Both the position numbers and the translations under genes were made by a program. 64,000 nucleotides of DNA from positions 291,001 to 355,000 of the forward strand of contig NZ_CP101833.1 in assembly GCF_024498355.1 (NCBI RefSeq). The letters are read 5' to 3'. Under the pieces are notes generated by a model. The model did no database searches, was not told the DNA's origin, and was given only the letters and a program-made list of their open reading frames with translations. How positions within the stretch are numbered: the first letter of the stretch is position 1; each line of letters starts with the position of its first letter. The stretch is from Bacillus pumilus. GTDB taxonomy: Bacteria; Bacillota; Bacilli; Bacillales; Bacillaceae. Below are positions 31,865 to 57,470 of this stretch, one piece after another.

Positions 31865-32494
31865 GTGGCGGTGTTTTTTGGTTATATCTTTTTAGGGTTG
31901 TCACTTTCAGCGCCTGTTGGGCCAGTCAATGCAGCCCAAATCGATAGAGGGATTAAAAGTGGATTTTGGCACGCGTGGATTTTTGGTGTGGGGGCTATGG
32001 CTGCGGATATCGTCTATATGCTTCTCATATATTTTGGTGTCGCCCAGCTTTTGACCGCACCTCTTGTGAAAACCTTTTTGTGGCTGTTTGGCTTTTTCGT
32101 TCTGACCTATACCGGCATTGAAAGTCTGCGTAAAATCAATTTGCAGGAGAGTCCAAAGAAGGACGGAGGAAACACAACGATTGGCCATTCCTTCATGACG
32201 GGATTTTTCATTTCTCTTTCCAATCCGCTCAGTATTTTATTTTGGCTTGGAATCTATGGCAGTATTTTGGCCAATACGATCGAAAAGTATGGGGCTTCCC
32301 AAATGCTGATGTACAGCATGGCTATTTTTATCGGCATGCTCATATGGGATTTCAGTATGGCGTTACTTGCAAGTACGTTTAGGCGCTACTTGAATGAGCG
32401 CATTTTACATGGCTTATCTGTTCTTGCAGGTGTATCCTTACTTGGCTTCGGTGCCTATTTTGGGTATCAAGGCATCATGGCATTGATTGGGTAG
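31865..32494 (+). CDS. ycgF: LysE-family amino acid exporter YcgF
   Basis: A 209-residue membrane protein with about six helices of the LysE/RhtB family (PF01810). The family start FLGLSLSAPVGPVNAAQIDRG is at residues 10-30, and the conserved SLSNPLSILFWLG near 118. Such proteins export amino acids or related metabolites. The GTG start follows AAGGAGGACGTCT. B. subtilis ycgF occupies the same place between lctP and ycgG; the intervening mdr and ycgE genes of B. subtilis are not seen here and the ntd genes take that space. The gene's terminator is split by the intergenic repeat described below. Confidence 0.85.
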   Translation: MAVFFGYIFLGLSLSAPVGPVNAAQIDRGIKSGFWHAWIFGVGAMAADIVYMLLIYFGVAQLLTAPLVKTFLWLFGFFVLTYTGIESLRKINLQESPKKDGGNTTIGHSFMTGFFISLSNPLSILFWLGIYGSILANTIEKYGASQMLMYSMAIFIGMLIWDFSMALLASTFRRYLNERILHGLSVLAGVSLLGFGAYFGYQGIMALIG

Positions 32495-32504
32495 AAATGT
32501 TGTA

Positions 32505-32531
32505 AAACAGACTGACGCAATCAGTCTGTTT
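32505..32531. repeat. upstream copy of the duplicated ycgF terminator hairpin
   Basis: 27 bp identical to 32707-32733: an 11-bp perfect stem (AAACAGACTGA / TCAGTCTGTTT) around a CGCAA loop. This copy lacks the long T tract because repeat copy A begins immediately after it. Confidence 0.9.
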
Positions 32532-32706
32532 CAGCGTGTAGACAAACCCTCGCATTCGTTGTCAGGTCTGCGCGCCGGTGCTCACGAATGTCAAATTCGC
32601 TCCGCTCCGGTGCTCGTCCTTCCTAGACTTCAAAGGTTTTCTATCACGCTGAAAAGAAGACAAAGGGCTAAAATAAAGGTCATTTTAGCCCTTTGTCAAC
32701 AATCTG
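32532..32706 (+). repeat. 175-bp intergenic repeat, copy A
   Basis: Begins CAGCGTGTAGAC and ends near TTTGTCAACAATCTG. It is about 95% identical (roughly nine differences by eye) to 57267-57441, which is exactly the same length. Inside: CAGCGTG (32532-32538) and CACGCTG (32645-32651) form outer inverted arms around a GC-rich core. A perfect 16-bp hairpin follows, with arms 32659-32674 and 32682-32697 around a 7-nt loop. It is bounded on both sides by the same 27-bp terminator hairpin. Not an IS element: no transposase. The open frames through it (RVDKPSHSLSGLRAG...) have no start signal. Confidence 0.88.
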
Positions 32707-32737
32707 AAACAGACTGACGCAATCAGTCTGTTTTTTT
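32707..32737 (+). terminator. downstream copy of ycgF terminator, with T tract
   Basis: Same 27-bp hairpin as 32505-32531, here followed by a run of T's, so this copy is a complete intrinsic terminator. Confidence 0.88.
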
Positions 32738-42792: not shown

Positions 42793-42810
42793 GAAATCAG
42801 CTCAAGAAGC

Positions 42811-42898
42811 TCATCCTTCTAGCCTTCAAGGGTTTTTAGGTCACACTGAAAGAAGACAAAGGGCTAAAACAGGCAATATTTTAGCCCTTTATCACATG
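42811..42898 (+). repeat. partial copy C of the 175-bp intergenic repeat
   Basis: Aligns with roughly the last 95 bp of copies A and B: CTTCTAG, the CACACTGAA arm equivalent, GAAGACAAAGGGCTAAAA, and a 12-bp hairpin AAAGGGCTAAAA...TTTTAGCCCTTT. The GC-rich front half is missing. It lies inside the operon, in the same orientation relative to its upstream gene as the full copies. Confidence 0.75.
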
Positions 42899-57242: not shown

Positions 57243-57266
57243 AGAGAAGATCGTTGGATCTGCTCT
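57243..57266. repeat. upstream copy of the duplicated hairpin flanking repeat copy B
   Basis: 24 bp matching 57442-57466 except for one missing base in the loop: outer AGAG/CTCT and inner GATC-type pairing. It is cut off from a T tract by repeat copy B, which begins at 57267. Confidence 0.88.
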
Positions 57267-57441
57267 CAGCGTGTAGACAAACCCTCGCATTCGTTGTCAG
57301 TCCTGCGTGCCGGTGCTCACGAATGTCAAATTCGCTCCGCTCCAGTACTCGTCCTTCCTAGACTGCAAAGGTTTTCTATCACGCTGAAAAGAAGACAAAG
57401 GGCTAAAATAAAGATCATTTTAGCCCTTTGTCAACAGTCTA
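57267..57441 (+). repeat. 175-bp intergenic repeat, copy B
   Basis: Starts CAGCGTGTAGAC and ends TTTGTCAACAGTCTA; same length and internal structure as copy A, including the CAGCGTG/CACGCTG arms and the 16-bp GACAAAGGGCTAAAAT hairpin. It lies between the arsB-like gene and yckA, between two copies of a terminator hairpin unrelated in sequence to the one flanking copy A. Confidence 0.88.
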
Positions 57442-57470
57442 AGAGAAGATCGATTGGATCTGCTCTTTTT
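57442..57470. terminator. downstream copy of flanking hairpin with T tract
   Basis: AGAGAAGATC...GGATCTGCTCT followed by TTTT; probable terminator of the arsB-like gene, repeated at 57243-57266. It also lies just past the stop codon of the convergent yckA. Confidence 0.75.

Follow-up and report, generated by a model that had tools for sequence, protein, structure and literature searches.

The element at the ycgF site

We analyzed a 64,000-nt stretch of Bacillus pumilus DNA (contig NZ_CP101833.1, positions 291,001 to 355,000; hereafter the window, numbered from its first letter), in which a 175-bp element lies between two identical stem-loops just downstream of a gene that an earlier note on this DNA had named ycgF. 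The element is probably a miniature inverted-repeat transposable element (MITE) that inserts into transcription terminators and duplicates the entire terminator stem-loop. The site contains the following features, in which IS-A denotes an insertion sequence (IS) described below.

31865..32494, plus strand: upstream gene (ycgF in the naming of the earlier note), 209 codons
32505..32531, strand unassigned: left copy of the duplicated terminator stem-loop, 27 nt, exact direct repeat
32532..32706, plus strand as drawn (orientation arbitrary): 175-bp element without transposase (MITE)
32532..32547, plus strand: left terminal repeat CAGCGTGTAGACAAAC, matching the left end of IS-A at 14 of 16 positions
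32532..32651, plus strand: 120-nt folded domain closed by CAGCGTG/CACGCTG, with compensatory changes within the inner helix
32659..32697, strand unassigned: internal perfect 16-bp hairpin, its pairing mostly kept and its sequence variable among copies and species
32691..32706, minus strand: right terminal repeat CAGATTGTTGACAAAG (reading inward), matching the left end of IS-A (CAGCTTGTAGACAAAG) at 14 of 16 positions
32707..32733, strand unassigned: right copy of the duplicated terminator stem-loop, 27 nt, exact direct repeat
32731..32737, plus strand: T tract, retained after the right copy only

The repeat unit is AAACAGACTGACGCAATCAGTCTGTTT, identical at 32505-32531 and 32707-32733, and since it is palindromic the repeat is simultaneously direct and inverted. 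The left hairpin begins 10 nt after the ycgF stop codon and its T tract is interrupted by the element (TTT, then CAG). The earlier note had described an exact 27-bp direct repeat around a 175-bp element without transposase, a T tract on the second copy only, inverted CAGCGTG/CACGCTG arms and a perfect 16-bp hairpin near the right end, and this description is correct in each respect. The arms were located at 32532-32538 and 32645-32651 and the halves of the hairpin at 32659-32674 and 32682-32697, separated by a 7-nt loop. The sole listed open reading frame (ORF) of at least 40 codons across the element, a 76-codon frame with a TTG start (32487-32717), passes through the left hairpin into the right one and is unconvincing as a gene. 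No transposase gene is therefore present in the 175 bp, as expected of a MITE.

Duplication of whole stem-loops

Matches to the element were found at 101 places in the genome, with both ends present at 62, the left end only at 24 and the right end only at 15. A pattern search for the ends allowing up to 3 mismatches recovered 86 left and 77 right ends and none of the reversed control patterns, and in a whole-genome search with the site the best other copies were 98% identical (40 of 137 first-look candidates scored). Left and right flanks were compared in 84 extracted copies, 61 full and 23 partial (BLAST E of at most 1e-10, span above 60 nt, at least 80 nt from the locus end). The flanks matched, with a gapped Smith-Waterman score of at least 13, in 53 of the 61 full copies and in 2 of the 23 partial ones; of 1500 mismatched pairs used as control, none scored above 13 and 99% scored no more than 11. 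The hairpin repeats that the earlier note proposed to look for around other copies are thus present in the great majority of full copies (53/61), and each site has a hairpin of its own, as in AAAGGACACCCATACTGAGGGTGTCCCTTT (30/30 identical), AGCTGAAGTCCATTCACAGGACTTCAGCT (29/29) and AAACGATCCTCGTGGGATCGTTT (23/23). At five loci without a pair (L009, L039, L066, L093 and L053), neither flanking stem-loop recurs within 3 kb (best scores 8-10).

The geometry of the duplications points to structure rather than sequence as the property that defines the target. Among 46 ungapped repeats (scoring 9 or more over 15 nt or more, which excluded two of 11 and 13 nt), duplications were 19-30 nt long, and the center of the dyad coincided with the center of the duplication in 29 and was at most 1 nt away in 45. 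Their median palindrome score was 9, compared with 3 in shuffles (95% at 5, maximum 7). We also examined the 39 copies whose borders fall precisely on the element ends CAG../..CTG, of which 21 carry perfect duplications. Stem pairs 4-8 were complementary in 30-32 of these copies and in 8-16 after a slide of 1 nt, and the same positions showed no strong base preference. Only the outermost three stem positions were biased, toward A at the left and toward T at the right, like the feet of terminators. By these statistics the target is an inverted repeat rather than a sequence.

Gene context was recorded for 48 full copies with a flank score of at least 5. Twenty lie between convergent genes, 14 are co-directional along transcription and 10 co-directional against it, 2 are inside short ORFs and 2 are unclassed; divergent gene pairs host none of the 44 classed copies. 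Stem-loops follow the stop codon at a median distance of 6 nt (64 distances, range -17 to 488). Judged by position and form, the target stem-loops are most probably intrinsic terminators. The orientation of the element shows no clear bias relative to the T tract (T run longer in 19, A run longer in 16, tie in 13).

The same signature extends to six subtilis-like genomes. The 30 copies fetched from them are 79-88% identical to the element of the own genome, and duplications with a score of at least 13 flank 21 of these, for example with 31/31 identity in L135 and L161.

Empty sites and independent insertions

Sites without the element but with a single terminator, which the earlier note had called for, were found at the ycgF site in 6 of 16 related species and, of eight other sites, at all but one (19 of the 30 loci read). 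At the ycgF site, one terminator and no element are present in G029, G067, G026, G064, G008 and G035, with a different sequence past the terminator in G064. G003 and G065 have the element between two hairpin copies, and G017 shows the left junction and then the end of its contig. In G034, G016, G021 and G062 neither state is clear and the site appears rearranged. The loop of the target-site duplication (TSD) differs among G000, G003 and G065 and is identical in both copies within each. The ycgF-site elements of the three species have identities of 0.943, 0.937 and 0.903, no closer than paralogous copies, so that identity does not separate descent from new insertion there.

The remaining three species have a decayed element at the ycgF site (G061, locus L238; G032, L246; G031, L247), in which the internal hairpin stands beside a T run as the only or last hairpin. 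It is as if the internal hairpin of the decayed element had been adopted as the ycgF terminator in these genomes.

Eight other sites were compared in four species, with 30 of 32 matched loci read. The element is present in 7 and absent in 23, and 19 of the 23 element-free loci retain one copy of their own terminator; the other 4, all at site L086, have a different hairpin. Part or all of one terminator copy has been lost in 2 of the 7 filled loci (L366 and L378). At sites L012, L016 and L005 the relative's element lies in the opposite orientation, and these are therefore separate insertions into the same terminator.

A candidate driver of the IS1182 family

A search of 44 genomes of the genus with the consensus end CAGNNTGTNGACAAA, from which the usual continuations of the MITE were excluded, returned a recurrent 21-mer, CAGCTTGTAGACAAAGTCTAC, that forms the left terminus of an insertion sequence of 1505 bp, here IS-A. 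Its ORF has 452 codons from the in-frame ATG that we used and 478 from the first start, and its protein belongs to the IS1182 family (NF033551, 477 bits against a cut-off of 270; Pfam PF13751, PF05598 and PF01609). No PDB sequence matched this transposase at E up to 10. Relatives of the gene occur at 56 loci, with named records that include B. pumilus, B. safensis and B. australimaris. Perfect palindromic duplications flank some IS-A copies, such as AAACCACTCATCTTTAAGGTGAGTGGTTT on both sides, and 8 of 17 distinct left ends (L271 repeats L257) have a perfect 19-29 nt palindromic pair, in one case around two elements.

A second IS1182 type, IS-B, has a transposase 46% identical to that of IS-A and four full copies in the own genome, one of which (L278) is flanked by a perfect 31-nt palindromic duplication. 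We then surveyed 30 loci at which the match to an IS1182 transposase was full or nearly so; some belong to the genus and the rest to other bacteria, for the most part Firmicutes. A palindromic direct repeat surrounds 22 of the 30, in hosts including Bacillus sp. SG-1, Compostibacillus, Peptoniphilus, Fenollaria, Anaerococcus and Streptococcus anginosus; a single Fenollaria genome contributed 7 of the 30 loci, and in L281 the repeats enclose a MITE beside the IS. The MITE thus has the same kind of target duplication as IS1182 elements, and its terminal inverted repeats are IS1182-like. In addition to the matches listed above, its left terminal repeat agrees with the right end of IS-A at 13 of 16 positions (12 exact, GTAGACAAACCC). 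In IS-A, L300, L301, the Fenollaria copies and L316 one end reads GACAAAG and the other GACAAAC, and the MITE does likewise. Transposase-less forms do occur, as in L267, a 430-bp deletion derivative of IS-A with a perfect 24-nt TSD.

Several observations concern the IS elements themselves. Two elements occupy one terminator in L250 (IS-A and an IS-B-type element, 3045 bp between the outer hairpins) and in L281 (MITE and IS-B). Five loci of G016 (L256 and L258-L261) have IS-A left ends and the start of the transposase, with the right end and second stem-loop unseen, and are apparently truncated. In L216 the IS-A left end forms a hairpin, GCTTGTAGAC AAA GTCTACAAGC, with TATAAT next to it, and the right end also has a hairpin; terminal repeat, hairpin and a predicted promoter likely overlap at the left end. 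At site L086 the post-gene hairpin of four species (L360, L362, L368 and L374), GCTTGTAGA..AAAACG..TTTTTCTATAAGC, resembles an end of IS-B, and an IS-B-type end may serve as the gene terminator in these relatives.

A conserved two-part fold

The fold of the element has two parts, a 120-nt rod with CAGCGTG/CACGCTG as its closing arms and a hairpin separate from it, and its folding z-scores are -7.35 as DNA and -7.95 as reverse-strand RNA. To measure covariation we aligned 39 copies, taken from subtilis-like species as well as the own genome: the 42 references (drawn from 44 hand-chosen loci) without L089, L100 and L157. Standard pairs occupy 98.0% of paired cells (92.1 in shuffles), two-sided changes occur in 11 of 36 pairs (7.2 in shuffles), and cells with two-sided changes number 97 compared with 30.2 in shuffles (standard deviation 6.4). 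Sliding the pair partners abolishes this signal. Further pair types show no excess (19 against 19.3 in shuffles), a result we count as weaker than wanted, and since the aligned copies are related and not independent, the shuffles overstate the significance of the covariation. Even with this kinship, pairing is kept across copies. Internal hairpin variants with matching arms include GGGC, GTCC, GTCA, ATGC, ATCC and GACC. The fold may be a requirement of transposition, or may function at transcript ends or as RNA.

Mechanism and alternative explanations

The flanking repeats, the empty sites and the candidate driver support the proposal of the earlier note that the element is a passenger moved to, and duplicating, rho-independent terminators. 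We consider it likely, with a probability of roughly 0.78, that the element is a non-autonomous IS1182-type MITE with structure-directed insertion into terminator stem-loops. In the mechanism that we propose, an IS1182-family DDE transposase would bind the CAG..TGT.GACAAA ends of the element and act on it in trans. The target would be picked by its shape, as a rho-independent terminator stem-loop in hairpin form, probably extruded as a cruciform, and the 3' ends of the element would be attached to the 5' feet of the two opposed hairpins, one to each. Such a staggered cut would cover the whole stem-loop, and gap filling would leave a full stem-loop on each side. The distal stem-loop copy would retain the T tract, and the gene would therefore keep its terminator, which may explain why insertion is tolerated.

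A number of results weigh against this interpretation. Flank scores of 13 were not reached in 8 of 61 full and 21 of 23 partial copies, and 9 of the 30 subtilis-like copies have no clear pair. Stem-loop length and TSD length are moderately correlated (r = 0.57), a value held down by pairing that often runs 1-8 nt past the duplication; these complementary feet beyond the TSD imply that the outermost pair is not in every case the point of the cut. The IS-A relative in the own genome is degraded (72% identity, 5 stops), and in 9 of the 17 IS-A left ends the expected right end or second repeat is missing. By the test used, 8 of the 30 surveyed IS1182 loci have no palindromic repeat, although one of them (L319) has a perfect 25-nt repeat with an off-center palindrome, and the 300 control pairs of that survey scored as high as 23 (99th percentile 16), probably an effect of IS ends within the 400-nt flanks. 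The 16-nt ends of the MITE discriminate weakly between candidate drivers, with at most 14 of 16 positions matching in IS-A and at most 13 of 16 in IS-B, and IS-A is preferred mainly for the shared GACAAA core (GAGAAA in IS-B). Comparison of the MITE with IS-A, IS-B, L300 and L301 revealed matches at the ends only; its interior is unrelated, so that it is not a simple deletion of IS-A. Movement in trans by an IS1182 transposase is argued from sequence, and the extrusion in vivo of cruciforms from such short stem-loops is assumed. Finally, IS1272, the closest studied relative, deletes its stem-loop (PMC5678879, PMC4923244), whereas the element described here duplicates it whole.

Other explanations account for part of these patterns. 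The same element and transposase could act on a single-stranded hairpin, in the lagging-strand template or a transcription bubble, with the second copy made by replication. Hairpins are common to the targets, and the element has a strong single-strand fold of its own (the DNA z-score given above) with compensatory changes, as such a route would favor; however, the transposase is by family of the DDE and not the HUH type, and insertions have no clear orientation bias with respect to transcription (14 against 10 among co-directional copies). We judge this route unlikely. Insertion could instead be far less selective, the survivors being those insertions that preserve a working terminator. That 44 of the 48 copies lie between genes at gene ends, the least harmful place, agrees with selection of this kind. 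Random long duplications kept for terminator function would nevertheless vary in border and center, whereas dyads are centered to within 1 nt in 45 of 46 duplications, and IS1182 elements elsewhere in the Firmicutes carry the same signature (22 of 30 loci); selection without targeting therefore seems very improbable.

We attach equally little weight to a different transposase, for example one of the IS30 family like IS1630, which is described as targeting and duplicating inverted repeats (PMC3317919, PMC7648426). No PF13936 match passes the cut-off in the own genome (10 of the 61 genomes searched have one), and five of the best IS30 loci, read with their flanks (L101-L105), lack a CAG..TGT.GAC end. 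Gene conversion or local duplication of the terminator around an old, fixed insert would fit a TSD loop that varies between species and is the same in both copies within a genome, as well as ycgF-site elements no closer than paralogues. It is contradicted by the empty sites and by the sites with opposite orientation, that is, by repeated new insertion, and is the least probable of these alternatives, to the point of being hardly credible.

A broader generalization of the preferred structure-directed mechanism is doubtful, and we offer it tentatively. IS1182-type transposition in Firmicutes may measure its target by shape and cut the two 5' feet of an extruded terminator, also on behalf of a passenger whose covarying two-domain fold (rod plus hairpin) either belongs to the substrate or functions as RNA; terminators would thereby be copied genome-wide, and the passenger's own hairpin could later take over, as the ycgF site of G061, G031 and G032 suggests.

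Relation to known systems

The transposases of IS-A and IS-B belong to the same family, IS1182, as that of IS1272. IS1272/TnSha1 of staphylococci targets inverted-repeat stem-loops, shows no target sequence consensus and inserts in both orientations; five of seven chromosomal targets were transcription terminators by RNA-seq, and the stem-loop is deleted or replaced wholly or partly, leaving no duplication (PMC5678879, PMC4923244). Stem-loop replacement of the IS1272 type is ruled out for the present element by the duplicated stem-loop and by the single copy in empty sites. Wan et al. (2017, Fig. 13) propose replacement for IS1272 and draw whole-stem-loop duplication as alternative pathway b, and they cite Siguier et al. 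as reporting palindromic targets for some IS1182 members, without detail (PMC5678879). The duplications described here are the prediction of that pathway b. A high-copy passenger goes unmentioned for IS1272/TnSha1 in the sections available of the two reports (PMC5678879, PMC4923244).

Inverted repeats are also targeted and duplicated by IS1630 of Mycoplasma fermentans (Calcutt, Lavrrar and Wise 1999), with duplications of 16, 23, 25 and 26 bp at four of seven copies (PMC3317919). As described there, IS1630 is autonomous, has an IS30-family transposase and is present in seven copies, whereas the element here is a passenger with about 100 copies. Bacterial intergenic MITEs and stem-loop repeats such as BOX, RUP and BrickBuilt are likewise short, structured, present in many copies and without transposase, and insertion into a terminator with its duplication is not described for any of them in the available excerpt (PMC10969869). 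For BrickBuilt, one study reports terminators and/or polyadenylation sites flanking 10 of 19 cases and duplications at three of four intact copies, differing in length and sequence (PMC4596501).

Group IIC introns insert beside a terminator without duplicating it. Such an intron was ruled out here, since the terminator is duplicated and no Rfam family reached its cut-off in the 64-kb window.

Structure-directed targeting of terminators (IS1272/TnSha1) and duplication of inverted repeats (IS1630) are already known. In the open-licence literature we found no published account of a high-copy passenger family or of whole-terminator duplication by IS1182 elements, nor one of the passenger's conserved, covarying fold. 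Structure-directed transposition has so far rested, in the reports as available, on IS1272, which deletes its stem-loop, and on the few copies of IS1630. About 100 copies, together with filled and empty alleles in sister species, provide a natural data set for its study. Terminators are safe sites, being abundant, outside genes and likely still working if duplicated and not broken. One element may in this way reshape many transcript 3' ends in the genus, including the apparent replacement of host terminators, and a terminator-seeking transposase could serve as an insertion tool.

Other copies, remnants and distribution

Two further copies lie in the window.

57243..57266, strand unassigned: left terminator copy of the second element (locus L025)
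57267..57440, plus strand: second full copy of the element
57442..57466, strand unassigned: right terminator copy of the second element (L025), 1 base longer than the left
42809..42894, plus strand: remnant of a third copy, right part only, without a visible flanking hairpin pair

The second copy has a hairpin repeat of its own, unlike that at ycgF. Elsewhere in the genome, 14 of the 15 right-end-only loci were read and all appear truncated. In five of them (L186, L188, L192, L195 and L196) the left hairpin and the rod are lost, and the internal hairpin and right terminator stand close behind the end of the upstream gene; A-rich microhomology at these loci suggests deletions. In five other loci (L040, L057, L073, L085 and L099) the internal hairpin or right end is deleted and the left hairpin remains, with short homologies at several deletion joints. 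No longer, autonomous version was found among the copies of the own genome.

Matches to the element were obtained in 38 of 44 genomes of the genus. In an order-level sample of 199 genomes, in which at most 4 candidates per genome were scored, they occurred in at least 3 genomes of the genus and weakly in at least 1 of another genus. A phage collection gave no match, and a plasmid collection gave 4 matching records, two from Stutzerimonas (mixed culture), one from Klebsiella and one from B. subtilis. Element copies stand under Stutzerimonas or Klebsiella labels in NZ_CP078511, NZ_CP078512 and CP063894, which are probably mis-assigned Bacillus DNA.

Partial matches in the subtilis-like genomes are longer or diverged copies or remnants, and no transposase was identified in the stretches read, whose ORFs were not searched. 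Reportedly, the 1997 genome paper on B. subtilis 168 describes a 190-bp intergenic repeat, which like our element is short, intergenic and from the same genus. Six subtilis-like loci (L165-L167, L172, L180 and L182) hold longer relatives with an extra middle segment, GGCGGCTAA..GGCGTCCTGCC.. and variants, and these are possibly a link to the B. subtilis 190-bp repeat.
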